Position numbers and translations under genes: made by a program
Source of the DNA: Prostheceraeus crozeri
Taxonomy: Eukaryota; Platyhelminthes; Polycladida; Euryleptidae
Direction of reading: 5' to 3'
Assembly (NCBI GenBank): GCA_907163375.1
Contig: CAJQUW010005259.1
Span: forward strand, 62,001-126,000
DNA: 64,000 nt
Notes under the pieces: generated by a model
What the model was told of the DNA's origin: nothing
Databases searched by the model: none
The model's input: the letters and a program-made list of their open reading frames with translations, nothing else
Shown: piece by piece, positions 2,183-20,105 of the stretch
Layout: every line of letters begins with the position of its first letter
How positions within the stretch are numbered: the stretch's first letter is position 1

Positions 2183-2646
2183 AGTAATGGGTAAAAGACC
2201 GTTCCAGGACACCATAAAATCAAAAAAATTGGTATCTTTAAAAACGACATAAATTCATGAATTTGAACCCTTTTTCAGGTTTTTAAGACCTAAATTCATG
2301 AATTTAGTCCATTCAAAAAGTACCATTTTTTCAAAAAATGACATTTTTAAAAACGACATAAATTCATGAATTTGAACCCTTTTTCAGGTTATGAAGACCT
2401 AAATTCATAAATCGGCTAAAGCCAGAGGAGCTTCGCTCCGATTTGGGCGTTTTTAAAAATACCCAATTTTCAAATTTTTCAAAATCTCAAAATTTGAGAA
2501 TTACAATCGGGCGAAGCCATAGAACCTTCGGTTCGATTTTCATTGCTTAAATCATGACCGTTCCAGGACACCAAAAATCATAAAAGTTGAGAATTTCAAA
2601 TTCATGAATTTTATCCATCTTTCAGGTTTTTAAAATATATCATGTG
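2183..2646 (+). repeat. Element 1 left terminal inverted repeat
   Basis: Matches the reverse complement of 20106-20582 over its whole length with a few small indels and substitutions. It starts AGTAATGGG, agreeing with the AG start typical of Polintons. Internally it contains two copies of a segment built on AAATTCATGAATTT-like palindromes (near 2236-2300 and 2347-2410), two copies of ACCGTTCCAGGACACC (near 2208 and 2557), and GC-rich mini-hairpins at 2414-2423, 2427-2439 and 2522-2534. Confidence 0.95.
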
Positions 2647-2738
2647 TCTAAAAATATTTCTTTAAAAGTGGAAGAAACAAAAGTGGAAGAAACAGCAAGA
2701 ATATATCCTTCAATATCATATGAACGTAGTTCTGCTAC
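2647..2738 (+). pseudogene. Remnant of the 5' end of the two-helix membrane gene
   Basis: The sequence is a degraded direct-sense copy of the 5' flank and first ~30 codons of the membrane gene at 17597-18289, with its repeated GAAGAAAC units and the following codons; the initiator triplet reads GTG. It lies directly inside the left inverted repeat. The simplest reading is that the membrane gene once abutted the right repeat and that the repeat pair once extended into it. Similarity stops abruptly near 2738. Confidence 0.8.
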
Positions 2739-2789
2739 CCCCTCCCTTCTGTCTTCTAGGGGTCCCTTAAGAAATTTTTTTATTATAAA

Positions 2790-3251
2790 ATGAGCAACAT
2801 AAATAAGTTTTTTAAATTATATGGAACGCAAACTACGACAAATTTCGACCTAAAGAAAATCGCAAATGAATTAGGAATAAAGAATTTTCATGTTCTAATG
2901 AGAGACGAATTACAATTCCTAAAAAATAAGCCAACAGGAACCTTCAGTTCCCGGAACAAAGTTCCATCAATAACTGTAAATTTCGTAACCAATCTCCATA
3001 CGTCAGATGAAAAAGGCGTACATTGGTCAGCAGGACAAAGAAATATAAACTGTTCAAATTATTATTTTGACTCATACGGACTTCCACCTACGAATGAAGT
3101 AACAGAAATACTTGGCAATGGAATTTATAATACGTTTCAAATTCAAAAACCGGGAACTACTTATTGTGGACAATTATGTTTATACGTTTTGTACAAATTA
3201 CAAAAAGGAGTATCATTTCTAGATATTATGTTAGAGTTAAACAATCTATAA
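2790..3251 (+). CDS. PRO: Adenain-type cysteine protease (PRO)
   Basis: A 153-residue protein with the adenovirus-type (Ulp1-like, C5) protease layout: His78 in GVHWSA, Asp94 in YYFDSYG, Gln119, and Cys126 in YCGQLC. In this family the enzyme matures virion proteins during capsid assembly. It sits alone on the + strand next to the left inverted repeat and converges on INT with about 34 bp between the stop codons. The ATG at 2790 follows an A/T-rich run and matches the start of the second copy at 58107. Residues about 50-60 are an insertion absent from that copy; the DNA there contains the hairpin GGAAC-AAA-GTTCC (2953-2965). The fold and active site should be unaffected because the insert precedes His78. 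Confidence 0.9.
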   Translation: MSNINKFFKLYGTQTTTNFDLKKIANELGIKNFHVLMRDELQFLKNKPTGTFSSRNKVPSITVNFVTNLHTSDEKGVHWSAGQRNINCSNYYFDSYGLPPTNEVTEILGNGIYNTFQIQKPGTTYCGQLCLYVLYKLQKGVSFLDIMLELNNL

Positions 3252-3285
3252 CTCAAGCGAAGCTAGCTAAAGCGCCACCTAAAGG

Positions 3286-4653
3286 TTAAAGCTCTGTTTT
3301 CTGTAATTCATTTTGATAAAAACGACCTCTGATATCTTCATCATCTAAATCTTTGATTTCGTAAGTAATCGGATAACTTTGATTTATTTTAGAAATTTCA
3401 AATATTTCTTTTGTCCAGTAACCAACAAAGCCTTTTTCAAATTTATTCTTATATTTAAATATTCTAACTCTATCTCCAATTTTAAATTTCGGCTTAAGTT
3501 TCTGCAAATTCGGATTACTCTCATTCAAATTATTATTCTCGAATATTTTCTTTCGTATCAAATCAGGGTCGTCAGAAGCATTCTTTGGGGTTTCTTCAAT
3601 ACCAGAATGAACTTTATTATTGTACTCTTCTACAACTCCTGGTAATATCTTCAACCATTTCTGATTTCCTTGCTGAGTAAATTTTTTGAAAATTTTATTT
3701 TTTAACGTCCGATTGAATCTTTCTATCACTACGGCCTTCCCAGCGTTTTCAGTTGAATAAACAATTTCAAATAGTGGCTGAACGTTTCGGTTATAAAATT
3801 CCGACCCTTTATCAACAAACAATTTTTTTGGCTTTCTATTACTTTCTTTAAAGATTTCTTCAAACGCATATTTAACTGAAAGACCACTTTTATTTTTTAA
3901 AGGCTTTACCCAAGCATATCGTGTATATAAATCTATAACGGTCAATGCGTATTTGTAGTCAGAATTTGTCTTAGAACCTTCGGTTCGGTCCCTTTCATTC
4001 GGCATATGAATAAGATCAGCACTCCAAATATCATCTTTATTAAATACTTTTACTTTTAATAAATATTTAGGCTTTCTATATTCTTTATGTATTTCAGATG
4101 CATAAACGTCTGAATTATGATTTCGAGCGTTGCTCTCAGACAGCTTTGCTGTCGTTTCATTTAAACCCTGACCGAATAATATTTTAGCTTGTAAAGCTTT
4201 CTTAACAAACATTCTTTCAATTTTTTCTCTAAATGTAGGATTCTGAATACTATCTAATTCTTGAATCATCTTCTTATCAGCTGCATGACGAGAACTTAGA
4301 TCATGATTTCGATAAGCTAAATCATGCCTGTAAGCGGCGGCATCTACTCTATTTATTGGTTCTTCACCTGGTTTCGGATTATTATTCTCATCTAGTCTTA
4401 TATCTAATCGAGTTCCTGGACCAGTATATGAATGACCAGGAAGATGTTTTTCTTTCGAATATTTACTCCAAATAAATCCAGGAAAGCTTTCTAATGTTTT
4501 TTGTATATCACCACCGAAGTGGTATGGAACTTTGTTCTTGTCACCTCCAATATCCTGACAATGTGAGTTTTTATTTTTGTTTAATAGATAATTCAATAAA
4601 TCTAAATTAGAAATTTTTAATTTAATTAAATTTTCGGAATTTTTAGAATTCAT
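3286..4653 (-). CDS. INT: Retroviral-like integrase with N-terminal phospholipase A2-like domain
   Basis: A 455-residue protein with two parts. Residues about 70-135 carry a calcium-loop-like YTGPGT (76-81) and the catalytic pair HD at 110-111 in YRHDLAYRNHD, the pattern of the parvovirus-type secreted PLA2-like domain. Residues about 200-350 are an rve integrase core with Asp213 (WSADLIHM), Asp281 (FVDKGSEFY) and Glu311 (VIERFNRTL), followed by an SH3/chromo-like C-terminal part (385-452). The usual Polinton HHCC zinc finger of the integrase is not visible; the PLA2-like region takes its place. Integrase inserts the element DNA; PLA2 domains in parvoviruses act on membranes during entry. The same fusion is open in the second copy (56218-57561), so it is not a local sequencing error. 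Hairpin-bearing insertions lie near residues 36-46, 175-183 and 222-232. Confidence 0.9.
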   Translation of the reverse strand: MNSKNSENLIKLKISNLDLLNYLLNKNKNSHCQDIGGDKNKVPYHFGGDIQKTLESFPGFIWSKYSKEKHLPGHSYTGPGTRLDIRLDENNNPKPGEEPINRVDAAAYRHDLAYRNHDLSSRHAADKKMIQELDSIQNPTFREKIERMFVKKALQAKILFGQGLNETTAKLSESNARNHNSDVYASEIHKEYRKPKYLLKVKVFNKDDIWSADLIHMPNERDRTEGSKTNSDYKYALTVIDLYTRYAWVKPLKNKSGLSVKYAFEEIFKESNRKPKKLFVDKGSEFYNRNVQPLFEIVYSTENAGKAVVIERFNRTLKNKIFKKFTQQGNQKWLKILPGVVEEYNNKVHSGIEETPKNASDDPDLIRKKIFENNNLNESNPNLQKLKPKFKIGDRVRIFKYKNKFEKGFVGYWTKEIFEISKINQSYPITYEIKDLDDEDIRGRFYQNELQKTEL

Positions 4654-4725
4654 TTTAAAAGATAAAAAAAATTAAGAAGATAAAAATAAATGTTTTACCG
4701 AAAAGAACCAAAGGTTCTGAGGTTA

Positions 4726-5211
4726 TTACCTTATCATACTAGGACTTAGATATATTCCAGAACCATCTTTAGTTTCTTTAATTTCAATTAAATCATCAAC
4801 ATTGTGGAGAATATTTTTAAGAACTCGTTTTCCTTCATCAACTAATTTTAATTTACTAATAAAATTATCTACTACTCCTTCACCCCTAGCAACTTTCTCT
4901 AACTCTCTATTATGTCGTTTTTGTTCTTCTAATGCTGCCTTCTCTGATTTATTTTTATTTACTGCTTGGACAATACCAGCTGTCCCACCTGCAACACTTC
5001 CTGCTGCAGCTATGCCACCTATTATTAGTGGAATTAATGGGAGAATCCCGCCATTCTTTTCTTCTTGTAATTGTATATTCTCTATCATTGGTTTACTTAT
5101 GTAATACTTTTTTTTGTTAATCGTAATAGTTTTAGGGGTATTTTTGTCAACAATATTACGTAATTTTAATTCAACAGTTTTATTATTAATATTACTTTTC
5201 GCTTGCGACAT
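4726..5211 (-). CDS. Small hydrophobic virion-like protein
   Basis: 161 residues. The N-terminal third is basic and polar, then comes a strongly hydrophobic Gly/Ala-rich segment (about residues 58-85, beginning GGILPLIPLIIGGIAAAG) and a charged helical region rich in Lys/Glu. This arrangement resembles the small membrane-active or core proteins encoded beside the capsid genes in adenovirus-like elements, but I base that only on layout and context. It lies between INT and MCP on the same strand, with 72 bp to INT. A second copy at 55566-56047 is broken by a one-base deletion in an A run. Function is inferred, not shown. Confidence 0.7.
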   Translation of the reverse strand: MSQAKSNINNKTVELKLRNIVDKNTPKTITINKKKYYISKPMIENIQLQEEKNGGILPLIPLIIGGIAAAGSVAGGTAGIVQAVNKNKSEKAALEEQKRHNRELEKVARGEGVVDNFISKLKLVDEGKRVLKNILHNVDDLIEIKETKDGSGIYLSPSMIR

Positions 5212-5220
5212 TTTTAATAA

Positions 5221-5400
5221 AAAAATTTTAAGTTATCAAAAATTTAAATCTATTCTAGTTATGAAAAAATTTCAAGTTACCAAAAAATTTCAAGTTACCA
5301 AAAAATTTAAATCTATTCTAGTTATGAAAAAATTTTAAGTTACTAAAAAATTTTAAGTTACCAAAAAATTTTAATCTATTCTAGTTATGAAAAAATTTTA
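5221..5400. repeat. AT-rich tandem repeats between two virion genes
   Basis: Irregular tandem copies of a unit with AAAAAATTTCAAGTTACC and CTATTCTAGTTATGAAAAAATTT, lying upstream of the hydrophobic gene (- strand). They probably include its promoter region. Element 2 has only a short version of this stretch (55510-55560). Confidence 0.7.
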
Positions 5401-5412
5401 ATTAACTTATCA

Positions 5413-5454
5413 GAGCGAAGCTCCTCTGGCTTTAGCCTATCGGACCAAAGGTCC
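5413..5454. repeat. Mini-hairpin cluster 3' of the capsid gene
   Basis: Three GC-rich inverted repeats in a row: GAGC-GAA-GCTC (5413-5423), GGC-TTTA-GCC (5428-5437) and GGACC-AAA-GGTCC (5442-5454). They lie just past the stop codon of the major capsid gene, where they could also act as RNA 3'-end structures. The second element has related but not identical hairpins at the equivalent place (55402-55503). Confidence 0.8.
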
Positions 5455-5462
5455 TAAGGTTA

Positions 5463-6797
5463 CTAACCGATCCTTACCATCTTTCCATTAAGAATTTCAA
5501 TAGAATATTTTACATCTTCTAGCAATAAACCATAAGCCATCAATGAAGTTGTGGAATCTTTCTTTTCAATATTAATTGTTACATCACAACCATTTTTAAT
5601 AATATCTTCAGATTGTGCACTTAAATCGAAACAGAAAATTGGATATAAATGTCTCCAATCTCCAGGAGTTAATTGTGGTTCAACTCCAAATTCTATACAA
5701 AGATTTCGATAAGAATCATATCCTTCCATAAATTGATTATTGGTATCATCGAATCTTAATGGATCAATTGGATAACGGGTTTGATTTAATGAAACTTGTA
5801 AACTTCGAATTGTATTAATATGAAAAATATTATTGTTCTTATCAAAACTTGGAGAATTATTTCTTTGAAAAGTTAGTAATAAATATCTTGGAGTATTCGC
5901 AGTTCTAGTAAAATGCCAGTTAAATCTTTGTTCGGAAAAAGTTACTGAACTAGCAGTACGCTTTAGAAAATTTACTGGAATTGGTTTGTTAGTATTTAAT
6001 CTTTTTGCAATAGCTGTTTCAATCTCTAAACTAGGAGTAATATGTTTAATCCACCATTCAAGTCTATCAATTTTTAAATATGCTTTTTTTCCAGTCTTAC
6101 CAAAAAAGATTAATTCATTATTTGCTGTACGATGAATTATTAATTTAAATTTTAATTGATATGATATTTTATCATAATCTAAATATCCGAATAATGGAGA
6201 CAATGACCAATTTACTGTCTGTTTACTTTTTTTGTTAAATTCACGTCTTTCTTTATATGCTTCATTATTTGTTTTATTTAAATGTTTTGCAATATTTTCT
6301 ACATCTTTCGCAATTCCTGCGGCATCTGTTCCAGCGTGAGTTAAATCATCAACAATTATACCATCATTAGTATCAGGAAACCAACCTTCGATTTCATACT
6401 TTTTATTATTTTCACCAATTGTTATAAATCTAAGCATTGTATCAATTACACCTGGAGAATCACTTATTGTTTCTATATTTTGAGTTGCAAGATCTAAACG
6501 CATTTGTGTAAATAAACTTGGGAAAAAATTATTCTCTAGTGTAATATTATCGGTATCTGGTAATGGTGTTGTAAAATTAGCATCACTATATAAAGAATAT
6601 TCACAGTGTAAAAATGAATCAGGTAGATATAAATAACTCTGCTGATTATCAACTTCAAAAATTAAATCTCCTCCAGTATTTACTCTACTGGAAGATCCGG
6701 GATTCATAGCAATTCTTATATAGTCATTCTTTTTTTGATTATAACTGACGAACGGAGGATCGTCTAATCTAAATTTATTTTCGATAAGCGAAGACAT
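5463..6797 (-). CDS. MCP: Double-jelly-roll major capsid protein (hexon-like)
   Basis: 444 residues, rich in beta-strand-like alternation, with no signal peptide or membrane segment. Size, position beside the hydrophobic proteins, and features such as the C-terminal stretch around YPIFCFDLSAQSEDI fit the double-jelly-roll capsid protein of Polintons/adintoviruses, which forms the trimeric capsomers of an icosahedral shell. The name rests on my recognition of the family and context; a structure-based search was not possible. It is the best conserved part between the two elements and I see no mini-hairpin within it, unlike INT, PRO and POLB. The second copy (54058-55393) is split by a one-base insertion. 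Confidence 0.82.
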   Translation of the reverse strand: MSSLIENKFRLDDPPFVSYNQKKNDYIRIAMNPGSSSRVNTGGDLIFEVDNQQSYLYLPDSFLHCEYSLYSDANFTTPLPDTDNITLENNFFPSLFTQMRLDLATQNIETISDSPGVIDTMLRFITIGENNKKYEIEGWFPDTNDGIIVDDLTHAGTDAAGIAKDVENIAKHLNKTNNEAYKERREFNKKSKQTVNWSLSPLFGYLDYDKISYQLKFKLIIHRTANNELIFFGKTGKKAYLKIDRLEWWIKHITPSLEIETAIAKRLNTNKPIPVNFLKRTASSVTFSEQRFNWHFTRTANTPRYLLLTFQRNNSPSFDKNNNIFHINTIRSLQVSLNQTRYPIDPLRFDDTNNQFMEGYDSYRNLCIEFGVEPQLTPGDWRHLYPIFCFDLSAQSEDIIKNGCDVTINIEKKDSTTSLMAYGLLLEDVKYSIEILNGKMVRIG

Positions 6798-6892
6798 TTT
6801 TATAAAAAATAATTTGACTTTTTGTTTTTCTCCCAGACAGAAAAAATTCTGCTAAAATAATTTTACTTAAATAATTTTACTAAAATATAATT

Positions 6893-7402
6893 TTAGAATT
6901 TTGCTAGCCCATTACCTCTTATTTCTTCAATTGTTTTTTTATTATTTTTATTTTCATTATGTTTACTATTAGACGGAGCTCCGCTCCTCAAGGTTTCACC
7001 CCCCACAGCTATGTTAGCAATTTTATTTTTTGTTTCATCTGAAAGTTTTTTTAAATTTTTTAGTTCTTCGGAATCATTCCTAAGTTTACGAATAGCTTCT
7101 AGTTGTTTTAATTCGTTTTGAGACTTGACAGCATTTGATATTGCACTAGCTGTACTACCTATAGCAGCTGCTCCTTTTGCAGCAGATGTAATCAAATCTT
7201 TATTATTTTTAATTAAGTTAACGATACTACCAATACCAGAAAAGATGCCAGCCCCTTCTTTTTGGAACGTCTTTTCTAGGAACTTTTGTGTTCCGACTGT
7301 TTCTACACTATCATAATGGTACACAGGTTTCTGAGATGGTTCATGAGCAATTTTATTATTTGATGCAAAATGTTTAAGATTGTGTTTATAAATTATAGGC
7401 AT
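6893..7402 (-). CDS. Small amphipathic virion-like protein
   Basis: 169 residues. It has a basic N-terminus (MPIIYKHNLKHF), a Gly/Ala/Ser-rich hydrophobic-amphipathic region (about 48-92, containing GIFSGIGSIVNLI and AAKGAAAIGSTASAIS) and a charged, likely helical C-terminal half. The layout is like the membrane-disrupting or cement proteins near capsid genes in adenovirus-like elements; that role is inferred. It lies directly upstream of MCP on the same strand. The region around residues 43-52 and the C-terminal tail differ from the second copy by hairpin-containing insertions. The tail here includes GGAGC-TCC-GCTCC (6975-6987). Confidence 0.65.
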   Translation of the reverse strand: MPIIYKHNLKHFASNNKIAHEPSQKPVYHYDSVETVGTQKFLEKTFQKEGAGIFSGIGSIVNLIKNNKDLITSAAKGAAAIGSTASAISNAVKSQNELKQLEAIRKLRNDSEELKNLKKLSDETKNKIANIAVGGETLRSGAPSNSKHNENKNNKKTIEEIRGNGLAKF

Positions 7403-7448
7403 TTTTTAGGATTAAATTTGACTTTTGGGAAAAAATATTTACGAACGG

Positions 7449-7535
7449 CTAAAGCCTCGAGGAGCTTCGCTCCGATTGGTTAGAAACCTGAGGACCTTTG
7501 GTCCGATCGGCTAAAGCCTCGAGGAGCTTCGCTCC
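7449..7535. repeat. Mini-hairpin array 3' of the fibre-like gene
   Basis: A run of GC-rich hairpins with short loops: GGAGC-TTC-GCTCC (7461-7473 and again 7523-7535), GGACC-TTT-GGTCC (7492-7504), each preceded by GGC-TAAA-GCC units. The order 'CGGCTAAAGCC-TCGA-hairpin' is repeated, so the hairpins travel as small composite blocks. The last one ends two bases before the stop codon of the fibre-like gene. Confidence 0.85.
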
Positions 7536-7537
7536 GA

Positions 7538-8425
7538 TCAAGATTTACGTTTGTGAATGGACAACAACTTCGAGATAACTTTATTAATTGACTGTTGCAC
7601 TTTATCTATTGCGTCAAGCAGCGTGTGATGTACTTTAATTTCTTTTCTATTAACTTGCATTTTCACCTGATTCATCTTCAACGCCGTTTTAAGAGCATTT
7701 AGCTTAATTTTAAGAACATCTAATTGTCTTTTAACAGAATCTAACTGTTCTTTATTTTCTTTAGAGTTTTCTTGTAAATTTTTCTTTAATTCATTTTCTA
7801 AATTGATTTTAAGAGTTTTCATTTTATCAACTTTTTGATTAAGTGAGTTTACTTCATTTATTATTCTATTCATCTTTTTCATTTGTTGAGTAATTTTAGA
7901 ACTCAATTCATCAACACTTTTTTGGAATGTAGTTTGTAACTGCTTTAAATTTTTTTTAATTCTTTCAGGTAGTTTTTCTATTTCATCTTCTAATTGTTCT
8001 TCTAACATTTTTATCTGATGTTTATTTTTAATTACAGCAGATTTTAAATTTAAAGAAAGTAATATTAAAATTTTTGATTGTTCAGAAATCTTTTTAAAAA
8101 GTTTTGCTATATCTGCTTCTAGCTCTCTATCCTTTTTATCAAGTTTTAATAATTTTTCGTTTAATGATTTGTCATTAAGTTTAAGCAACTTTAATTCATT
8201 CATCAGTGGAACCAAAACATCGTTTATATATTTTTTCTTTAAATCATTGATTTGTGTATCAACATATTGTTTATTTGTTAACTCTGTATTTTGTTGCGGA
8301 AGAATAGAAAGATGCAATGGACCAGATAAAACGTCTCCAGTTTTCATAATATAATTTTCTATCTCTATTTCTAATTCACGATTATTCGGGATATATGCAC
8401 CTCCACCAACATTTGGTAACATCAT
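7538..8425 (-). CDS. Coiled-coil fibre-like protein with tail-fibre motif
   Basis: 295 residues. Near the N-terminus (about residues 28-60) the pattern KTGDVLSGPLHL ... NTELTNKQYVDTQI matches the 'GDxMSGPLxLPxxPxxxxxATKxYVD' motif common in phage and giant-virus tail/receptor-binding fibres. The rest (about 60-290) is almost wholly predicted coiled coil with leucine/lysine heptads and ends basic. Its place next to the capsid genes suggests a spike or fibre; the receptor-binding role is inference. It starts at 8425 and shares a 75-bp spacer with the divergent gene at 8501. The second copy (52405-53292) is intact and differs at 12 residues. Confidence 0.75.
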   Translation of the reverse strand: MMLPNVGGGAYIPNNRELEIEIENYIMKTGDVLSGPLHLSILPQQNTELTNKQYVDTQINDLKKKYINDVLVPLMNELKLLKLNDKSLNEKLLKLDKKDRELEADIAKLFKKISEQSKILILLSLNLKSAVIKNKHQIKMLEEQLEDEIEKLPERIKKNLKQLQTTFQKSVDELSSKITQQMKKMNRIINEVNSLNQKVDKMKTLKINLENELKKNLQENSKENKEQLDSVKRQLDVLKIKLNALKTALKMNQVKMQVNRKEIKVHHTLLDAIDKVQQSINKVISKLLSIHKRKS

Positions 8426-8500
8426 TTTTTAACAATAAAAAAATAAAATTTTTTCTAATAAAAATAGAAAAATAAATTTTTTTCTAATAAAAATAAAAAA
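8426..8500. promoter_or_regulatory. Likely bidirectional promoter
   Basis: This is the 75-bp gap between two divergent start codons. It is almost pure A/T and holds two direct copies of about 27 bp containing TTTTTTCTAATAAAAATA. Divergent genes with so little space must share control sequences here. No experiment or known element motif supports the exact sites. Confidence 0.5.
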
Positions 8501-9790
8501 ATGGATAAAGCAAATTTAAAAAAATTATATTCGCCCGCATCATCCTGTTCTTCTTATTCGACGAGATCAACGGGATTTGAAAATAAATGTTTTGATAATA
8601 ATAATCCATGTATAGATGTTAATATTTTATTTCTATTACAAGCCGAAATATTTAGAGAACAGACTAAAGGTTTACCTTCTATAGAAACTAATTATTGTTT
8701 ATTTCCAGGTGATCCATTTATTAAATTTATGGAGATTGTTAGTAAATATAATGATGTAGCTTATGTGGAATTAAATAAAGAAAATATGGTTATAATAGGT
8801 CATAATAATGTATATGGGTTTATCAGAGCAGTTTTGCCGATTAGTAATACTGATTGGATAGAAAATAAAATTATTAATTATATCAATATTAAAGAATTAG
8901 TTAAAAAATTAAAATCTTTTTCGAAAGAAAAAATTAGATTATTTGTTGACGATCAAAATCAATATAACATTCACATAGAGAGTAAAAAACATAATGAAGA
9001 ATTATTATGTCAAGTTTATTATAGAGACACAATTTATAAACAAGAAACATTAGAAATGCCGCAAAGATATGATGATGATACGTATATAGGATTATATTCA
9101 AACTTAAATATTAATTTGTTAAAATCTTATATGAATGGTTTAGCTCAACAAGAGAAAATTTATATGTGGACTACACCTTATACTATTAACAATGACCATA
9201 ATCATATTCATAATAAACGAACTGAAGGTTCTAGGGCTTTGCCCTATCTTAAAGAATCTTATGATAATATAGATGATGATTCTGTAACATCTGAAAATGG
9301 TGTAAATGGTAAAAAAGATTATAAAAATATTAGTAATTATAAAAATTTATCTAAATTTCATTTTCTTACAATTGAAAATAATAATGATGGTATAGTTGAA
9401 GATACTGTTAGACAACTATGTGTCGGGTCTACAAAATTTAAATTAGGATTTACATCTAATCAATTTAAAATTTTATCATCTTTAACAAAAACTAAAAGTG
9501 ATTCAGATTATGGTGGTGTTATTAAATTTTCCAAAAGAGATCAAAGACCAATATTTTTCTCTATTATATTATTATCAGATAAAAGATGTAATTTAGAATT
9601 AGATATTCCAATAAGAGAATGGTATCCTATCATGGAAGGGCATCCTATACCAAAAAGTGTAATTTATGATGATGAAGAAACAATTTATGATGATGATGAA
9701 GAATCAATTGATGATGATGATGATGAATCAATAGTTAGTGAAAAAAAATTTAAATTATCTTTTGATAAAACATTATATGATGAAACTTAA
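8501..9790 (+). CDS. Unknown 429-residue element protein
   Basis: I do not recognise this protein. It starts at ATG 8501 after an A-rich run. The N-terminal 25 residues are Ser-rich; two segments (about 50-180 and 295-365) have alternating strand-like patterns (for example VAYVELNKENMVIIG and FKLGFTSNQFKILSSLTK) separated by a low-complexity linker (about 230-285). The C-terminus (about 375-410) is a run of Asp/Glu. Two related beta-rich halves plus an acidic tail, beside the polymerase and on the same strand, could fit a sliding-clamp-like accessory factor, but that is a weak guess. The linker carries the mini-hairpin GGGC-TTT-GCCC (9234-9244). It has no counterpart in the visible part of element 2. 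Confidence 0.8.
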   Translation: MDKANLKKLYSPASSCSSYSTRSTGFENKCFDNNNPCIDVNILFLLQAEIFREQTKGLPSIETNYCLFPGDPFIKFMEIVSKYNDVAYVELNKENMVIIGHNNVYGFIRAVLPISNTDWIENKIINYINIKELVKKLKSFSKEKIRLFVDDQNQYNIHIESKKHNEELLCQVYYRDTIYKQETLEMPQRYDDDTYIGLYSNLNINLLKSYMNGLAQQEKIYMWTTPYTINNDHNHIHNKRTEGSRALPYLKESYDNIDDDSVTSENGVNGKKDYKNISNYKNLSKFHFLTIENNNDGIVEDTVRQLCVGSTKFKLGFTSNQFKILSSLTKTKSDSDYGGVIKFSKRDQRPIFFSIILLSDKRCNLELDIPIREWYPIMEGHPIPKSVIYDDEETIYDDDEESIDDDDDESIVSEKKFKLSFDKTLYDET

Positions 9791-9933
9791 TATGATAAAA
9801 CTTAATGTGATAAAGAAAAAAATAACTAAAGAACGTGAAATATATAATAATATAAAATAACACTCAAGTCCTTGATATTAGAATGTTTATATCTAAAATT
9901 AAAACACAAATTTTTCCTTAAAAAATAAAAAAA

Positions 9934-12900
9934 ATGGAAAATACCAAGTTTTATTGTGTCTTATGTAAAAAAAGTTGCAAACAAAAAGAAGTTATCAATC
10001 TCATTTAAATAGTAAATTGCATTTACAAAATGTAGAACGAGTTGATGAAGGAAATATATTAAAATTAAATAGTTATAAAAACTATCTAGAAACATTGCCT
10101 ACTGATATAAAAGTTAAAAAAATGTTTGATGATTATTCACATTCGGAATATAAAAAAGTTTTTAATAGTGAAGATGAGACCATACAAACCGAAGGTTCTA
10201 GGGCTTCGCCCGTACATGTGACATCGGAGATGTCTTCCAGGGCTTCGCCCGTACCAGATGGAAGATATTTATTTAGCGATACTGATGAATTTGATGAAGC
10301 TGAACGAACCGATGAAGCCTTACAAACAGAAGGTTCTAGGGCTTCGCCCGTAACAGATATAAAATATTTATTTAATCAGTCTTTTCGAACCGAAGGTTCC
10401 AGGGCTTCGCCCGTTGAATATAATGAAACCGATAAAACTTTTTATAATGTATTAACAAACTTTTATAATATATTTAAGAAATCTTTCAAATGTTATATGA
10501 ATGTAGAAGTACTTTATACAAAAAATGGACCTGATGGAATTCCTGAAGAAATAATACAAGGACATTTTACAAATTCACAAGAAATTCATAATGTAAATGA
10601 TATACAACCCATATTTGAATCGATGATACTTAAATTAGAAAATTGTATAATTGAAGCCCAGTTACGTGAATCTGGTTGGAGATTTGTTAAAATACTATCT
10701 AAGAAAATAGTAATTGATAAATATAAAAATAATACTGGTGGTAGTTATGTTTCTTTACCTTTCAGTTCACCACAAATAATCAACATAAAAAATGAAGATG
10801 ATTATTGTTTTCTGTGGAGTATTATAGCACATTTACATCCTGCAGAATATCATAAAGAAAGACTAAGTCATTATAATAAAGAAGAATACATAAAGGAATT
10901 TGATCTTTCTGATGGCTTAGATGAATTTCCATATGATTATAATAGGTTAAAAAAGTTTCATAAAAAGAATAAAAATTTAATAGAAGTAAATGTTTTTGAA
11001 TTAAATGTGAATTATGTTTCTATTGGTAAAATTACTCCACTTTACTCAGATTCAAAAAAATTTTATTTGAATAATAAAAATTTATGTCAATCAGAAATAG
11101 TATATAATGATAGAGGAAATTACATGCATCATAATATTTTTTACCAAGGAAATATAATATGTACTGAAAAATTTGAACTTGTTAAAACATTATCACCAAT
11201 AATGATTAATCATAATAATTATAAAGGACGTACTGATGATTATAATTACAAATATTCATCTTTATCTTCAGAATATCAACAAAAATTAGAAAATTTAAAT
11301 AAAAGTTTACAAAAATGTAAAACAGATTATCAACAACAAACAATATTAGTACAAGAATATGGCCATAAATATCAAAATAAGATAGAAACAATTCAAAAAT
11401 TAAATGAAGAAAATAATAAAGAATTAAATAATGAAGAAAATAAAGAATCGGCTAAAGCCAGAGCTTCGCTCCGATTAAATGAATGTTTAAAAAAATGTCT
11501 ACAACAATATAAAGAACAATATGATAAAGAATATATTTATCAGCTACAAATATTAAATCAAAATTATCATCAAAATACATTTAATATTACAAAAGAAATT
11601 AATGAAACACATGAAATATATCAAGATAAATTTGAAAAACTAGAACAGTCAAAACAACCAGCACAAGCGAATATATTATATTATCAGGGTCATTTTATAT
11701 TGTGTAAAGATGTTTCTATATTTACAAAAACTTCAGATAATAAAAATTTTCCTTGTCTTCAATGTATGACAAGTTTTAGAACTTTAGAAGAAATGAATAG
11801 ACATTTGGAGAATTGCCAACAAAATGAAGCAGTTCAAAATACTTTTCCTAAAGATGATTATTTAGAATATAATAAATGGTATTTTAAAAATAAAGTACCC
11901 TTTACTATTTATTGTGATTTTGAAGCATATAATGTTAATATGACACAAAATCGAACGGAAAGTTCCAGGGCTTCACCCGATTCTGAAAATTGTACGGGCC
12001 AAGCCCTAGAACCTTCGGTTTTTAATTCTGAAAAAAGTGCACCTGGAAAAAGTTCAGCTGAACAAAGTAAAGAAAAATATTTATTTGAACAAAAACCATT
12101 ATGTTGGGGAATGTACATTCATTCAAATTATCCTGAATTATTTAAATCAGAATATTTTCAATACTATGGTGAAGATAGTTCAGAAATGTTTACAAAGAAA
12201 GTAGAAGAATTACAAGGACGTTTTTCACAATTGCTTGAAACAAATATTCCAATGATGCCATTAACAGAAAAAGAAAAATTAAATTTTATTAATGAAACAA
12301 AATGTTATTACTGTGGAAGAGAATTTACAAAAAATTATAAAAATGGCAAAGGTAGATATCTTGATAGGCGAAGCGACGGCTCTGCCGTCAAGGTAAAAGA
12401 TCATGATCATCTAAATGGATTATATAGAGGTGCAGCACATAATTCTTGTAATCTTAATGCTAATAAATTTAAATATAACTTTGTTCCTCTGTATTTCTAC
12501 AATGGTTCTAAATATGATTTCCATCTAGTAATGAAAGATTTATTTTCATCTGAAAAATTACAACAACAACAAATAAATGTACTATGTAAAACAGAAGAAG
12601 AATATTTTTCAATGCAATTAGGTTGCATTAGAATTTTAGATGCATTTAGATTTTTTACTCCTTATTCATTAGATGTTATGGGAAAAACTTTGAAATCTGA
12701 ACAATGTAAAATATTAAATAAATATAATTTAAAACCTTTAAAAGGAATATTTCCGTATGAGTATATAGCCTGCGGCTCACAGTCGACCTATGGTTCACAG
12801 TCGAAGACTGATATAACTGGAGATAAAACCTGTGGTTCACAGTCGAAGACTGATTTTAATTCTGTGAATAAAATTATGGAAGAAAAACAACTTCCTCCAA

Positions 12901-14732
12901 TAAATAAATTTAAATCAACATTAAAACAATCAAAATTATCTGACGAAGACTATGCAGAAGCTGAAAAAAATTGGAGAGAGTTAAATTGTAAAACAATGTA
13001 TGATTATACAATGAAATATCTTCAGATAGATGTATTAATACTAGCTGATCTTTTCGAAAACTTTCGTGATATGTGTTTAGAATATTACGGAATAGATCCA
13101 TGTTATTGTTATTCTACACCAGGTTTAACATGGTTAGCAGGATTAAAACATACTGGTGTTCAAGCCGATGGCTCTAGGACAAAGTCCGTTAAACTTAAAC
13201 ATTATAAAGAAAATACATATGATAAATTATTATTTTTTGAATCTGGAATTAGAGGTGGAGTTTCATCAGTTTTAGGTAATAGATATGTTAAATGTTATAA
13301 TAAGAAAGTAAATCCACAAGAATATGGAATAATGAAACCTTTATCTCCAGAAGAAAAAGAAAAAATATTAGAAATTTTTCGAACGAAACGAGAAGGAGTA
13401 GAACGTGAAAAAGCAATTGATGAATTCATGAGAGAAAACTATTTGTTATATTATGATTTTAATAGCTTATATTCTTCTTGCATGATACAAGAATTACCAA
13501 CAGGTGAAATGTCATGGTGTAATATTCGTACGACATCAGAGATGTCTACTAGGGCTTCGCCCGATCTAGATTATCAAAGAACATATGATGGTGAAAATAA
13601 TTTTGGTTATGTATATGAAGTTGATTTAGTATACCCTGATTATATAAAAGATAAAACAAAATATTTTCCTTTCTGTCCCGAAAACAAAATTCCTAATATA
13701 GAAGATTTTTCAGATTATCAAAAATCTTTAATTCCTAAGAAATATAGACCAACAAAAAAACTTATGTTAACACAAAGCAATAAAGGAAAGTATGTTGTTG
13801 AAGGAAGAATGCTAGATTGGTATTTAGATCATGGAATGATTCTCACCAAAATACATCGAAAACTAGAGTATAGAAAATCTAGGTGGTTAAAAAATTATAT
13901 AGAGTTCAATATTGAAAAACGTAAAATAGCTAAAAGAAATAAAGATGATTTTGGAAACGTGTTCTTCAAATTAATGAATAATGCATTTTATGGTAAGACT
14001 TTAGAAAATGTGCGTAATAGACAAAATATTGAAATAGTTTATGATAAAGATAGATTTCAAAATTTAACAAGGAAACCTACATATAAAAGAACTACTAGAT
14101 TCAGTGATGAACTTTGTGCTGTTCATCTAAGAAGAAGCATTGTAAAACATGATAAGTTTAATTTCATTGGTTTCACTATATTAGAATTAGCTAAACTATT
14201 TATGTATAGTTTTATATATGATTATTTAGCACCTGCTTATGGCAAAAACTATAAATTACACTTTACAGATACCGATTCTGTTTTCTTAGAATTAACAATA
14301 CCGTATAATTCTACACTTGATGAAGAAATAGATAAAATAAAAGATATCATTCATCCTTCTGATTTATGTAAAGTAAAAGATGAATTAGAAGGAAATGAAG
14401 ATTTCATAACAGAAGCTATATTTTTAAAATCTAAATGTTACTGTTATGATACAACTAATAATATTAGGACATCGGAGATGTCTTCCAGGGCTTCGCCCGT
14501 TAAAACACATAAAACATTAAAAGGAATTTCAAAGGCATCAGTGGCTAATCAAATAACATTTCAAGATTATAAAAATGCATTATTTAATAATGAAATAAAA
14601 ACAGCATGTAATTATAGACTTAATTCAAAAAAACATAACATGTATTTAAAAGAAGAACATAAATTAGCATTAGATCCATTTGATGATAAAAGAAAAATTT
14701 TACCTGATGGAATAACTACTGAACCTTTTTAA
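9934..14732 (+). CDS. POLB: Protein-primed-type DNA polymerase B (element 1), frameshifted near start
   Basis: The main frame runs 9975-14732 (about 1,585 codons) without an ATG at its start. The ATG at 9934 lies in the neighbouring frame and begins FYCVLCKKSC; the main frame continues YQSHLNSKLH, so together they outline a C2H2 finger broken by a one-base loss near 9979-9992. Exonuclease motifs: DFEAY (about 11916), NGSKYDFH (12501), YLQIDVLILAD (about 13017). Polymerase motifs: DFNSLYSS (about 13458, A), KLMNNAFYGK (13967, B), FTDTDSV (14262, C). A second zinc finger (about 11754-11817) and an endonuclease VII-like block with CYYC, DHDH and CNLN (about 12302-12460) are inserted, as is common in this polymerase lineage. 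It replicates the element DNA. Many in-frame mini-hairpins encode GSRASP-like peptides. Confidence 0.92.
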
Positions 14733-14820
14733 TTTTCTAATTTCTAAGATAGACAAATTTGATATATATATAAAATAAAAAAATATTGTAACACTATATT
14801 TGTATATTTTTATCACTCCT

Positions 14821-14875
14821 CGAAAATATTTTCGATCGACTTTCAGTCGGGGCGAAGCCCCTCGAGGCAAAGCCT
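14821..14875. terminator. Hairpin cluster between convergent POLB and ATPase
   Basis: A tight row of inverted repeats: CGAAAATATTTTCG (14821-14834), CGACT-TTC-AGTCG (14837-14849), GGGGC-GAA-GCCCC (14849-14861) and AGGC-AAA-GCCT (14865-14875). The last overlaps the stop codon of the ATPase. They lie between two convergent genes and could form RNA 3'-end structures, but equally belong to the dispersed mini-hairpin family. The terminator role is only a suggestion. Confidence 0.45.
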
Positions 14876-15569
14876 AGTCAGAGAAGAATTGTTCGATAAC
14901 TCTTTCATGAATTTTTTTATCAATATTAATTGTGATAAATCCATAATCTTTTGACCAAGCATTGTTACACGATTGTTTAAATTCATCTTTATTTCTTACA
15001 CATAAATCTCTTAACAAATCACTTAAGTTTCTTGCATTTATTTCAAATAGTATAAATATATTTGCATTCTTTCTAATAACACTTCCGTCTAATGAATACA
15101 TACTTTGTGTTAAATAAAAAACACTACAGTTATTATGTCTACCTCTTGTGAAATAATTTCTCTGAACTGACTGATTTCTATCATTAACACAATCATCAAA
15201 AATTACACAATGTTTCATTGTTTTATCTAGTTTACTAGGATCTTGCATATTACCACTATCATCTATTAATTGTATCTTTATATGGTTATTTTTATTAGAT
15301 TCTACTAACTGATTATTTTTTGCTGCTTCTTCACACCACGAACTTATTTCTTCTTCATCTTCAGATTTTTCATATTCTTTGAATAATGAAGCAATTGCTG
15401 TTTTTTTAAGATTATTTTCAAATCCATATTTTAAAAATTGATAGACGGGTTGTTCTGCCGTTGTTGTATAAATTATAAGATTGTTATAATCCAAAAAATT
15501 TGGAGTCGTTAAAATTTTAAATAATAGATATGTTTTTCCACATCCTGATCTTCCACAAATAACTGACAA
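14874..15569 (-). CDS. ATP: A32/FtsK-HerA-like packaging ATPase
   Basis: About 231 residues. Walker A is GRSGCGKT and Walker B is HCVIFDDC, followed by LTQSMYSLD, the sensor region typical of genome-packaging ATPases of Polintons and NCLDV-type viruses. The enzyme would drive DNA into preformed capsids. The reading frame before Walker A has no ATG: it starts at TTG 15569 and the open stretch reaches back only to a TAA about 15 codons further upstream, past an 8-A run. So the start may lie in another frame across that run, or the N-terminus may be spliced or damaged. It converges with POLB. Confidence 0.85.
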   Translation of the reverse strand: MSVICGRSGCGKTYLLFKILTTPNFLDYNNLIIYTTTAEQPVYQFLKYGFENNLKKTAIASLFKEYEKSEDEEEISSWCEEAAKNNQLVESNKNNHIKIQLIDDSGNMQDPSKLDKTMKHCVIFDDCVNDRNQSVQRNYFTRGRHNNCSVFYLTQSMYSLDGSVIRKNANIFILFEINARNLSDLLRDLCVRNKDEFKQSCNNAWSKDYGFITINIDKKIHERVIEQFFSD

Positions 15570-15702
15570 AACTTTATTAGATAAATTTGGATGATGATTA
15601 AATTTAAGTTTTTTTTATTAAATTAATTTAATAAAAAAATTTATTTTTATTTTATTTTTGTTTTTAAAGAAGAAGAAGAAAATTAAACTTCTCTAGCTTC
15701 GC

Positions 15703-15776
15703 GTGGGAGTTTATACCTCTCGAACGGGAGTTTATACCTACCGAACGGGAGTTTATACCTCCCGAACCAAAAGATC
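15703..15776. repeat. Three 20-bp tandem repeats at the penton 3' end
   Basis: Three copies of a unit containing CGAACGGGAGTTTATACCT lie just past and over the penton stop codon. The last can pair as GGGAG with CTCCC across TTTATAC. They are in no gene apart from the edge of the penton frame. Confidence 0.8.
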
Positions 15777-16541
15777 TATCATAATCTCTTCACCTCCAAA
15801 ATTTATTTCTTGTCCTTTCTCATCAGTGATTCTAATGCCAATGTTGTTAATAGTTTTTCTTGTAATAGGAAAATATATTAATGTTTGTGGAATTACATTT
15901 AATCTATAACCAATGGGTACAGTAAAAGCTGGAAAACTGAATATTAAATTTGATAATTTACCATTTATATATCCTCCTTCAATAATGTCACAATGTACAA
16001 CAATTGAATTTATTTCAGTTATTTTTGGAATCTTCTCACCTAAATGATAACCTTGACTATAGGTTTGTTTATTAAATCCTAATAGCTTTGACAATGATCT
16101 ATCATGATTAAAATCAACTTGATGATTTTCGTCTAAAGTAAGAGAAAATTTATTAACTGCCGGTTCAACTGCAAAATGTAATTGTTTCTTATCTTTAAAT
16201 GATATACCTAAATGTCTCTTAATTTCATTTGATATTGTTTCAACTTCGTAAGAACCAGGAAGAAAAGTTAGTATTTTCCATGTTTTGCCTTTATCAGTAG
16301 AATATCTAAATTGATCATTCACATCTTTGATAACGTTTTGTATAGTGTTAAATGTAGAGAAACTAGTCAATGCAATTTGATAATTTTTATTTTGTTCTAA
16401 ATGTAGAATGGGTTCTAAATTACAAGTGTGTGATGAAGTAGTTGTTATAATTTTTAACGTCGTACTAAATTTTGATGAACCCAAAATCTCTGTTAGATTT
16501 TCTAAATGATTATTAATTTTGTCTAAATCTGCTGAACACAT
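15753..16541 (-). CDS. Penton-like single-jelly-roll minor capsid protein
   Basis: 262 residues, beta-rich, no membrane segment. The C-terminal half has the order I associate with Polinton/adintovirus penton proteins: LLGFNKQTY, then VVHCDIIEGGYINGK, then a YFPITRKTINNIGIRITDEKG stretch and GGEEIMIDLLV at the end. These proteins occupy the fivefold vertices of the capsid. The assignment is by pattern and context. It starts at ATG 16541 after an A/T-rich leader and is transcribed with the ATPase direction, about 180 bp upstream of it. No mini-hairpin interrupts it. Confidence 0.8.
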   Translation of the reverse strand: MCSADLDKINNHLENLTEILGSSKFSTTLKIITTTSSHTCNLEPILHLEQNKNYQIALTSFSTFNTIQNVIKDVNDQFRYSTDKGKTWKILTFLPGSYEVETISNEIKRHLGISFKDKKQLHFAVEPAVNKFSLTLDENHQVDFNHDRSLSKLLGFNKQTYSQGYHLGEKIPKITEINSIVVHCDIIEGGYINGKLSNLIFSFPAFTVPIGYRLNVIPQTLIYFPITRKTINNIGIRITDEKGQEINFGGEEIMIDLLVREV

Positions 16542-16611
16542 TTTTAAACTAAAAAAAATTAAATAAATATTTTTTTATGAAAAAGGTAAAACAACAACAT
16601 ATTTCAGCTAC

Positions 16612-16680
16612 GGGCGAAGCCCTGGAGGACATCAGAGATGTCCGGTTCGGGCGAAGCCCTGGAGGACATCAGAGATGTCC
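16612..16680. repeat. Duplicated mini-hairpin block
   Basis: Two tandem copies of the block GGGC-GAA-GCCC (16612-16622, 16649-16659) plus GGACATC-AGA-GATGTCC (16627-16643, 16664-16680), about 37 bp per copy. The same two hairpins occur joined in the polymerase gene (13532-13562, 14468-14498), so they move or duplicate as a pair. The second copy runs into the last codons and stop of the next gene (16669). Confidence 0.9.
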
Positions 16681-17490
16681 TGTTATACTTTTATAATCCT
16701 CTTCATTTAGAATCTTCTTTTCTAACAGTCTTTTCAATATAGCATGAATTTCATTGAAACTAGAATTATGTCCTTCTTTTATTGCAGATATTAAAATATT
16801 TAATCTATTTAGTAATTCTTGTGGATCATCTGGCAAAAATACAGTTGTTTCAGTTTTCTGTTTTTCAGATAAACCTTTTCCTACTTTAACTCCCGTTGAT
16901 AATAAATTTTCTAATTGTTTATAACGTCTAAGAGATTTTACTGCACCAACTCTGTCTAACATAGCTTTATATTTTATGAGATCTTCTACAGCATAATTAT
17001 TTAAATCTGCTCCTCTTAAAAGATTAACAAAATTTCTATCTAAATTAAAAGGAGATTTATCTGGTGAAAAAATTAAACCTCGAAAAGGTTGTGGAAATAT
17101 TTCTTTTTGTCCGAGATAAAATCTAGGTATTGTTTTTCCATCTATAAATGAAATAGAATGTTCAAATTGCATAGATTTTGGTAATTTCTTATTAATGTTT
17201 GATTCTAGTAATCCATAGTCATCTAATATAGTTTTGTGCTCTGGATCTGTTATATCAATTTGTTTATCATTATTTGTACTTTCTTTTTCAAGAGTTTTAA
17301 ATGGTTTCATAGTTTTCTCAAAATCAGTTTTTACTTGCTCGGTTTGCTGCATTTGTTCAAACATATCAGATTGAATACCAGCTTTTATCATTCTATGTTG
17401 AAGATGATTTTCTTTCATAATATTTCTTTGTTTTATTAACTCTTCTAATTGTTTTATTCTTTTAAAATTATCAGCTTTAATTTTATCCAT
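16669..17490 (-). CDS. Conserved Polinton-type protein of unknown function
   Basis: About 273 residues from the ATG at 17490 (MDKIKADNFKR); the frame stays open 22 codons further upstream, but the A/T-rich leader just before 17490 favours that ATG. The N-terminal third is charged and helical; the middle holds a strand-rich part (IPRFYLGQKEIFPQPF) and the C-terminus has VFLPDDPQELLNRLNILI followed by a helical end. A similar C-terminal pattern (leucine-proline-acid-proline, then a long helix) is familiar to me from unnamed proteins of adintovirus-like elements. The role is unknown; packing beside the penton and membrane genes suggests a virion or assembly part. The last codons are formed by a mini-hairpin. 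Confidence 0.7.
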   Translation of the reverse strand: MDKIKADNFKRIKQLEELIKQRNIMKENHLQHRMIKAGIQSDMFEQMQQTEQVKTDFEKTMKPFKTLEKESTNNDKQIDITDPEHKTILDDYGLLESNINKKLPKSMQFEHSISFIDGKTIPRFYLGQKEIFPQPFRGLIFSPDKSPFNLDRNFVNLLRGADLNNYAVEDLIKYKAMLDRVGAVKSLRRYKQLENLLSTGVKVGKGLSEKQKTETTVFLPDDPQELLNRLNILISAIKEGHNSSFNEIHAILKRLLEKKILNEEDYKSITGHL

Positions 17491-17596
17491 TTTTAAAATA
17501 TAATATTTGAATTTTGTGGTAACATTGGAATACAGCAAAAACATTTTACTGAACAAATTATTTTTTTATTGCTTTGTTGTTTGACATCTTTTCGCT

Positions 17597-18289: not shown

Positions 18290-18306
18290 TTTTTAAAGAA
18301 ATATTT

Positions 18307-18465
18307 TGAATAAATATTTTGAAAACAATCTTCTGAAATGCTATTTAAATCGAAATACGTAGTTGTTTGTTTGTCGTATATTTCTAAGAACTCAGTCATG
18401 TTATTAACCTGAGGTAATATATCACCTATATTACTCAGTATAACTGTCGGATTTTCATCATTCAT
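18307..18465 (-). pseudogene. Fragment resembling the N-terminus of the protease
   Basis: From the ATG at 18465 the frame includes TEFLEIYDKQTTTYFDLNSI, which lines up with the first 21 residues of PRO (KFFKLYGTQTTTNFDLKKI) and then loses similarity. It runs without a clean stop into the 5' flank of the membrane gene. I read it as the remains of a second, diverged protease copy, or of a gene with the same N-terminal module. No catalytic part is left. Confidence 0.5.
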
Positions 18466-18596
18466 TTTAAATGAAATAAATTCCAATAACTGTAATAATG
18501 ACTACTTCTTGTACAGGAAAATGAAAACAACGGCAGTGTATTTTGCATCAAATATAATAATACAACAATCAATCTTATCATACAATTGTACAATGT

Positions 18597-19111: not shown

Positions 19112-19196
19112 ATAAAGAAGTCTTCATAAATATGTATACATCAAATATGTATGTACATTGCACATATCTTAAAAAGTGAAACAACACAGTTAATGT

Positions 19197-19802: not shown

Positions 19803-20040
19803 TTTGCAATAAGGAAAGAAAACAGTCACTAGTTATGATTAATGGAATTGTAAATGAAGTCTTACTTCCTACATGCTGCAATTATACGCCACGTCTTTAC
19901 AAATGAATAAGTGGGTGTAGCAGCTGTTTGTTCTTTCATACATTGTTTCCTTTCAAATGTTTGAGTTGGAGGACACAGCTCCTTACACTGAAATGCATTT
20001 TATTCATAAATGCGGGAAGCAGATGTTCTCTACCCTTGAA

Positions 20041-20089: not shown

Positions 20090-20105
20090 TTCAAATATTT
20101 TTAGT

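Follow-up and report, generated by a model that had tools for sequence, protein, structure and literature searches.

Double-hairpin units as probable mobile mini-elements in a Polinton family of the flatworm Prostheceraeus crozeri

Introduction

A virus-like transposon of the Polinton type in the polyclad flatworm Prostheceraeus crozeri is riddled with short GC-rich hairpins, which raises the question of what these hairpins are and how they have spread. The stretch analysed here (the window) comprises 64,000 nucleotides (nt) of contig CAJQUW010005259.1 (assembly GCA_907163375.1, positions 62,001 to 126,000 of the forward strand) and contains this transposon, element 1, and another one, element 2. 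An initial annotation of the window had described the hairpins as a dispersed family. Our analysis indicates that they are almost certainly the halves of mobile mini-elements: double-hairpin units are cleanly present or absent at given Polinton sites, with a short target-derived duplication, and those located in coding regions are in frame.

Element 1 exhibits the characters of Polintons/Mavericks, i.e., terminal inverted repeats, a retroviral-type integrase, a packaging ATPase and a double-jelly-roll capsid protein. In its open reading frames (ORFs), Pfam recognises a fusion of a phospholipase A2-like (PLA2) domain with the integrase, the capsid protein and the ATPase. The polymerase ORF has no Pfam polymerase match of its own and was assigned to family B through homology to PF03175 proteins; the protein P0002 is a relative with 69% identity.

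2183..20582, no strand assigned: element 1, Polinton with terminal inverted repeats of about 480 bp and Pfam matches to integrase, capsid protein and ATPase
9975..14732, forward strand: polymerase ORF of element 1 (P0001, 1585 aa), family B DNA polymerase via relatives, containing most of the coding insertions

Results and discussion

Excess of GC-rich hairpins with three-base loops

We counted hairpins with a loop of 3, a stem of at least 4 and at least 3 G/C in the arm, the control being the mean of 40 dinucleotide shuffles. Element 1 contains 44 of these short GC-rich palindromes in AT-rich DNA vs 1.3 in shuffles (26 vs 0.7 for stems of at least 5), and all nine words quoted in the initial annotation are present. 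There is no excess for loops of 4, 5 and 6 (1, 2 and 2 vs 1.5, 1.2 and 1.3) and a smaller one for loops of 7 and 8 (8 vs 1.6 and 7 vs 1.4). Element 2 contains 10 hairpins vs 1.7 in shuffles, all at 51.9-57.7 kb, in its part homologous to element 1, and none in its polymerase ORF. The density expected from composition, against which the annotation had proposed to scan, is thus exceeded in both elements. The annotation had seen no hairpin at 20.6-51.7 kb of host DNA, which is correct for the family words and too strong for hairpins in general, since the host DNA (20583-51700) shows a mild excess (13 vs 8.0).

The hairpins of the elements have a common make. A 5'C-G3' closing pair is found in 41 of the 44 hairpins of element 1 and in 10/10 of element 2 vs 4/13 in the host, and loops made only of purines or only of pyrimidines in 39/44, 8/10 and 7/13, respectively. 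GAA/TTC are the chief loops in element 1 (24/44); GAA loops with G-C closing pairs form exceptionally stable DNA mini-hairpins, in line with the stability reported for GNA mini-hairpins (PMC4686876). As the annotation had noticed, the hairpins occur in genes, between genes and in the terminal repeats: 26/44 lie within ORFs, 19 of them within the polymerase ORF, and both terminal repeats carry units.

Anatomy of the double-hairpin units

The hairpins are the halves of a unit with the structure C-[hp1]-spacer-[hp2]-G, in which hp1 and hp2 are the two hairpins and the spacer has 2 to 5 nt; most units have 28-37 nt. The hairpins noted by the initial annotation, often as pairs or triplets, are real, the true unit being larger than one hairpin: a double hairpin that begins with C, ends with G and has duplicated a few bases of its target. 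With a fixed grammar, we detected 23 units in element 1 vs 0.00 in shuffles (maximum 0 in 20 shuffles), 4 vs 0.2 in element 2 and 9 vs 1.7 in the host. None of the 9 host pairs found under a slightly different grammar belongs to the family; in one of them, a GGAGC stem bears a different loop. We propose the name double-hairpin elements (DHEs) for the units, and the type names A to F were coined in this analysis. Type A corresponds to CGGCTAAAGCC-AGA-GGAGCTTCGCTCCG; type B combines GACATC-NNA-GATGTC as hp1 with GGGC-TTC-GCCC as hp2, and type C combines AACC-GAA-GGTT with the same hp2. Types D, E and F are less frequent. Units occur singly or as arrays, which follow the pattern unit-AT-unit-AT (7446-7536; 55.38-55.50 kb). 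The following units were identified, L numbers designating other loci:

2413..2440, forward: type A, 28 nt, left terminal repeat, AT flanks; mirror copy at 20325-20352
2508..2535, reverse: type C, left terminal repeat, one stem base changed, AT flanks; mirror copy at 20231-20258
4124..4154, forward: type E, 31 nt, in the PLA2-integrase ORF, TT flanks; also in element 2
5411..5470, reverse: two tandem units with AT between them, intergenic
7446..7536, forward: array of three 29-nt units with AT between them; copy L019 is one unit (31 nt) shorter
9218..9245, forward: type C, partly decayed, in ORF 8501-9790
10185..10212, forward: type C, 28 nt, polymerase, TA target; filled and empty alleles
10215..10251, forward: type B, 37 nt, polymerase, TA on both sides; missing in L017 (39 nt less)
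10323..10350, forward: type C, polymerase, TA target; in other copies, the site is empty or holds type B
10386..10413, forward: type C, polymerase, TT target; in other copies, the site is empty or holds type B
11449..11473, forward: type A with a 3-nt internal loss, polymerase
11952..11979, forward: type C, decayed, polymerase; intact in L018; type B there in L093, L099, L100 and L101
11995..12022, reverse: type C, TA on both sides, site within small tandem repeats; missing in L018
12366..12389, forward: type F, inside the Endonuclease_7-like stretch; missing in L018 and P0002
12767..12810, forward: type D with an 18-nt internal duplication
12825..12852, forward: type D, 28 nt, AT target; missing in L017 and L018
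13161..13188, forward: type C-like, 28 nt, TT target; empty in 3/30 copies
13527..13563, forward: type B, 37 nt, TT target; missing in L017
14466..14499, forward: type B, 34 nt, TT target; empty in 1/30 copies
14848..14876, reverse: intergenic unit; filled in 14/30 copies
16611..16682, reverse: two tandem type B units, intergenic; type C there in L056, type B in L095, L096 and L102
53305..57644, no strand assigned: units of element 2 at 53.3, 53.8, 55.38-55.50 (array), 56.7 and 57.6 kb, all within its region of homology with element 1

Filled and empty alleles

We compared the polymerase region with 30 copies from the same genome (L023-L052, the window's own included), which are the best-scoring of 31149 first-look candidates, and with two copies found by DNA pattern: L017, which is 98% identical apart from gaps, and L018, which is 90-96% identical over its colinear pieces. 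L018 lies on contig C8638; its colinearity with the polymerase ends at about window position 13210, beyond which it is divergent. The element belongs to a recently very active Polinton family, since 30 copies were retrieved, the others being 96-98% identical to that of the window, and 21/30 have no stop.

Relative to the proteins P0002 and P0003, P0001 contains additional peptides where the units lie, and many of these are missing in L017 and L018. Filled and empty alleles coexist among the same-genome copies at 12 sites, 11 of them coding. These include a type A insertion at about 9726, private to 1/30 copies, and a second type A site at 11420, near 11449, which has AT as its target and carries the unit in some of the other copies and not in others. 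The length differences at coding sites are 30, 36 or 39 nt, a multiple of three in 11/11 cases; the intergenic one is 31 nt. The peptide of the type E unit at 4124-4154 is missing in the 8 aligned relatives; P0135 has a different insertion at that place. The hairpins are present in other Polinton copies of this genome and are polymorphic between them in presence and absence, which the initial annotation had missed.

A short duplication, 2-5 bp as read, can be resolved at 11/12 sites. The exact overlaps between filled and empty alleles are ATC at 9726, TACA at 10185, TA at 10323, TT (in some copies GTT) at 10386, AT at 11420, ATATA at 12763 (counted to the right of an adjoining base difference), GAT at 12825, GTT at 13161, TTA at 14466 and AGTC or TC at the intergenic site 14849; at 13527, the overlap is TTC with the commonest allele and TC with that of the window. 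At 10215, hp2 is common to the two neighbouring units, which extends the overlap to 15 bases and prevents the duplication from being resolved. Counting the unit from its C (sometimes A) to its final G, one obtains a duplication of TA, TT or AT at 10/10 resolvable coding sites, and the A/T dinucleotide adjoining the C...G unit varies among sites of one unit type. Equal dinucleotides flank 44/47 type C, 53/53 type A and 62/76 type B units (many of them same-site copies, and some loci overlapping), and TA, AT and TT were all found on the flanks of both type C and type B units. Units have been inserted in either orientation in Polinton DNA.

Several points weigh against a mobile unit with a 2-bp target duplication. 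The choice of the 30 copies by protein score biases allele frequencies and under-represents out-of-frame insertions; the in-frame pattern was also observed in L017 and L018, which were chosen by DNA pattern and not by protein score. An overlap of exactly 2 bp is found only at 10323, 10386 and 11420 (plus TC at 13527 with the window's allele), and it reaches 3-5 bp at 9726, 10185, 12763, 12825, 13161, 13527 and 14466, where we interpret it as a 2-bp duplication lengthened by bases that match the ends of the unit. The intergenic overlap, AGTC or TC, is not A/T; alternative allele pairs at 10323 overlap by CC, A or CCGTA; and odd overlaps at 10185, 11420 and 11996 stem from base changes, tandem units or small repeats. 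Type A units are flanked by AT/AT in 53/53 cases, and thus this type alone may carry its AT or have used microhomology. Some empty alleles could be precise deletions. Finally, folding of seven stretches of 1-1.5 units as DNA beats shuffles only mildly (z from -0.91 to -2.45; -3.58 for a tandem pair).

The optional nature of the units bears on the possibility that they are functional signals, such as terminators, packaging sites or recombination sites, maintained by selection. Their recurrence in both terminal repeats and in some spacers, among the copies sampled there, is in agreement with such a role. We nevertheless consider it very improbable, as 19/44 hairpins are located within the polymerase gene, both orientations occur, many units are optional among copies that are 96-98% identical, and the unit at 11952-11979 has decayed with the frame kept.

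Shuffling, tandem growth and decay

Types B and C alternate at one and the same place near 10185 and at 10323 and 10386 among the 30 copies, and at 11952 and 16611 among other loci. Since both types share hp2 and differ in hp1, either hp1 has been swapped in place or the site was struck again. Comparable merger and shuffling of units are reported for yeast GC clusters (PMC4478555). The unit at 11952-11979, decayed in the window and in L017, is intact in L018, and the frame has not been lost. In five shared units, 0/1233 intact stem pair-cells were changed on both sides and 13 were broken; together with this decay after insertion, these counts argue against any upkeep of the units in place. At three of the five shared units, conservation appeared to exceed that of the remaining gene (0.1-0.6% vs 1.5%); this idea was dropped, as the flanks of those sites look just as quiet and the other two units vary more (3.7 and 5.8%). 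The polymerase stretch at window 11200-11650 (about residues 420-560), which is missing from the aligned relatives, itself contains tandem and double-hairpin insertions.

Template switching by the polymerase of the element, which the initial annotation had considered as an origin of the hairpins, could produce them at quasi-palindromes with no mobile unit at all. Tandem growth by a 31-nt unit, the 18-nt internal duplication and the swapping of hp1 resemble copy-choice events, and such a process may well contribute to the shuffling of hairpin halves and to tandem growth. It fails to account for exact units flanked by different dinucleotides, for thousands of identical words of 26-32 nt, for the recurring units of 28, 34 and 37 nt, for flanking dinucleotides set by the target and for the existence of empty alleles; the absence of doubly changed stem pair-cells points in the same direction. 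A purely structural origin is thus extremely doubtful and, in our view, already excluded as the sole cause.

Genomic range of the units

Exact words of 26-32 nt, identical in thousands of places, were counted in the 2.05-Gb assembly: 4380 for type C, 3159 for type A and 2613 for type B, the reversed controls giving 0. This abundance and the filled and empty alleles bear out the view of the initial annotation that the family is dispersed and has spread by copying. We sampled 50 places (20 C, 20 A and 10 B) among the first 100 listed for each type, and all 50 stretches showed homology to element 1 or 2, at a coverage between 0.44 (L089) and 1.00. If these picks are representative, the rule of three puts the share of units located elsewhere below about 6%.

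A second lineage of Polinton-type polymerase is present in the same genome, with an ORF of about 1292 aa that is open in most of the 34 copies scored with P0027 as query. Two polymerase regions of this lineage (L104 and L105; 7.1 kb) are free of units of types A, B and C and of GGGCTTCGCCC, and their loop-3 hairpins number 3 vs 1.05 and 1 vs 0.50 in shuffles. Based on the filled and empty alleles, the abundance of exact units, the 50/50 sample and these unit-free regions, the range of the mobile mini-elements is therefore, within what was sampled, a single lineage of virus-like transposon.

In databases, the type C pattern was found 0 times in IMG/VR and in GTDB genomes, and the type A pattern 0 times in IMG/VR, where no relative was detected with P0001 or an integrase alignment either. 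The GGAGCTTCGCTCCGAT pattern matched 14 IMG/VR loci with a GC content of 0.48-0.68, which we took as chance matches; there is no double unit in their 96-base contexts, and their loop-3 hairpins range from below shuffles to about 1.7 times shuffles. An IMG/VR polymerase (L103, 29% identity) has 7 loop-3 hairpins vs 1.45 expected and was set aside as being of another make: 4/7 are one CATCG-CCC word and none has a GAA/TTC loop. Among 121 PolB proteins (P0001 and 120 listed of 319), unit peptides were found in P0001 only, besides one unrelated match in P0027.

The units might alternatively be non-autonomous transposons with a 2-bp duplication, for instance of the mariner/IS630 kind, mobilised by a conventional transposase from the host or another element. 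The duplication is reducible to 2 bp, TA is among the targets, and we noticed mariner- and hAT-like ORFs in the host flank by reading of the ORFs. The nearest proteins to one mariner-like ORF of the host have at most 80% identity, and those from named species about 40-42%. This origin is improbable, though, given the TT and AT targets besides TA, a 28-nt unit without the usual terminal inverted repeats, and the distribution of the units: a host transposase should fill host DNA too, and the 50/50 samples lie in Polintons, two polymerase regions of the second lineage being free of units. In Pfam and PHROGs scans of the ORFs without assigned function, the integrase was the sole transposase or recombinase recognised.

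Proposed mechanism

The mobile units would move during replication of the carrier and not in chromosomes, as we infer from the fact that, in the sample, one carrier lineage alone contains them. The integrase of the carrier is not an obvious agent, because the carrier's own insertion shows a 7-bp match, TGCGACT, found on either side of element 1 as its target duplication. In the model that we propose, the carrier would replicate as extrachromosomal linear DNA; strand displacement would expose single strands, on which the very stable GAA mini-hairpins could fold; a structure-specific nuclease might then cut near the branch with a 2-nt stagger; the copied unit would be joined at the staggered cut and the 2-nt gaps filled; and selection on the virus-like genes would purge out-of-frame insertions. 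The 2-nt staggered cutting of the hairpin-forming unit is our inference. That hairpin DNA is handled by a structure-specific nuclease during replication of the element is the route that we favour, as a tentative suggestion; the overall account of the units as mobile elements is very probable.

The prime suspect for such a nuclease would be an Endonuclease_7-like stretch within the element's own polymerase. This stretch (PF02945) directly precedes the polymerase part and, at E<=0.01, was detected in 5/8 of the polymerases aligned. Recognition of many branched structures has been reported for T4 endonuclease VII, and cutting two base pairs off the junction for some junction-resolving enzymes, Hje and Hjr (PMC3157427). 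The candidate is weakened by the scores, as only P0007 among four Endonuclease_7 matches is above the Pfam cut-off, P0002, P0004 and P0027 being below, and the polymerase of the window (P0001) matches only with E 0.051, a unit sitting within that stretch. Moreover, many of the polymerases listed under PF02945 belong to elements whose unit content was not examined, and neither the enzyme nor a transposition intermediate was observed in this sequence analysis.

RNA-mediated copying remains the main rival of this scheme. Transcribed double hairpins, as small ribozyme- or tRNA-like RNAs, could be ligated to DNA at nicks or staggered cuts and then be copied back, which would suit units lying inside genes in both orientations. 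LINE-like (long interspersed nuclear element) ORFs are present in the host flank, by reading of the ORFs (the Exo_endo_phos match is below the cut-off), and RNA-mediated spread has been argued for yeast GC42 (PMC4478555) and suggested for the double-hairpin elements of Allomyces too. Yet element 1 gave no Rfam match below E 0.42, none of the four weak matches lying over a unit; the favoured GAA loops are a signature of DNA mini-hairpins; and LINE enzymes would act on host DNA too, in contrast to the 50/50 sampled units located in Polintons. We regard the RNA route as rather unlikely.

Comparison with known elements

By their architecture, the units are closest to mitochondrial GC clusters and double-hairpin elements, although such likeness is one of form. 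Yeast GC clusters (e.g., GC42) are described as GC-rich palindromes in AT-rich DNA with a terminal AG or ACT duplication, inserted in frame in var1, merging or shuffling, and polymorphic in presence and absence (PMC4478555, PMC8811140). The DHEs share with them the short GC-rich palindromes, the short duplication, in-frame insertion in genes, shuffling, tandem arrays and polymorphism. Tandem arrays of yeast GC clusters were reportedly described by Weiller et al. in 1989, to judge by the title. Instead of the AG or ACT of yeast, the 10 resolvable coding sites have TA, TT or AT as their duplication, and one intergenic site AGTC or TC; the sequences are also different, the unit is a double hairpin with three-base loops of the GAA type, and it is carried by a virus-like transposon situated on large genomic contigs. 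Unlike the yeast clusters, which are mitochondrial, the units lie in Polintons at 50/50 sampled places (no mitochondrial contig was looked for).

In Allomyces mitochondria, double hairpins inserted in genes vary in number between close species, and these organellar elements are reported to have no flanking duplication (PMC2800124). The likeness resides in the insertion unit, two adjacent GC-rich hairpins acting as one, and is one of architecture, the sequences not having been compared; unlike the Allomyces elements, the DHEs show a short target duplication at 11 resolvable sites. Hairpin and double-hairpin elements have repeatedly invaded sponge mitochondria, where some sit within coding regions; they are mostly intergenic or located in rRNA, and their mechanism was left open (PMC2800124).

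Rickettsia palindromic elements, which are bacterial, have about 100-150 bp, whereas the units described here have 28-37 nt. They are reported within protein genes whose function is not abolished (PMC6649704), and a similar in-frame insertion was observed here at 11/11 polymorphic coding sites, in copies chosen by protein score, which favours this result. The initial annotation had named yeast GC clusters and Rickettsia elements as the nearest parallels, aptly so in terms of architecture and in-frame insertion. The miniature inverted-repeat transposable elements (MITEs) of pandoraviruses are tied to a known transposon family and are much longer. They represent palindromic repeats within a virus genome (PMC5799277). 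As for the fixed-length duplication of MITEs, all 10 resolvable coding sites are compatible with 2 bp, and 7 of them show a longer exact overlap.

In open-access titles and abstract openings on Polintons, Mavericks and adintoviruses, and on palindromic elements in connection with viruses, we found no description of such elements in Polintons. GC clusters and double-hairpin elements are already known from mitochondria; the Polinton is a new class of carrier. In those mitochondria, their movement is still debated between rival routes (PMC4478555, PMC2800124). This question becomes testable here, thanks to a high-copy carrier, thousands of units, filled and empty alleles, a sister lineage free of units in the sample and a candidate nuclease. 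Our results suggest that virus-like transposons have mini-parasites of their own, from which a viral polymerase gains short peptides without loss of its open reading frame. Possibly, though we put this forward with reserve, the DHE is a 28-nt, purely structural DNA parasite of one virus-like transposon lineage, transposing as hairpin DNA via a junction-cutting nuclease in the replicative polymerase of its carrier; it would then be a mobile element of a mobile element and among the shortest with a defined target duplication.

Other features of the carrier elements

The phospholipase A2-like domain fused to the retroviral-type integrase is encoded at window 3286-4653 on the reverse strand, and both Pfam domains are present in most of 120 relatives among the matches listed. 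Window 18547-19110 contains 270-nt direct repeats, of which the copies at 18547 and 18841 are identical and the copy at 18691 is 61% alike in this register, and window 15705-15760 contains tandem CGAACGGGAGTTTATACCT repeats whose copy number differs among element copies. The polymerase of element 2 (60189-63977, reverse strand) harbours an intein with a LAGLIDADG-like domain. The polymerases of elements 1 and 2 share only 19% identity, whereas their capsid regions are 92% identical; element 2 thus looks, from its sequence, like a recombinant of two Polinton lineages.

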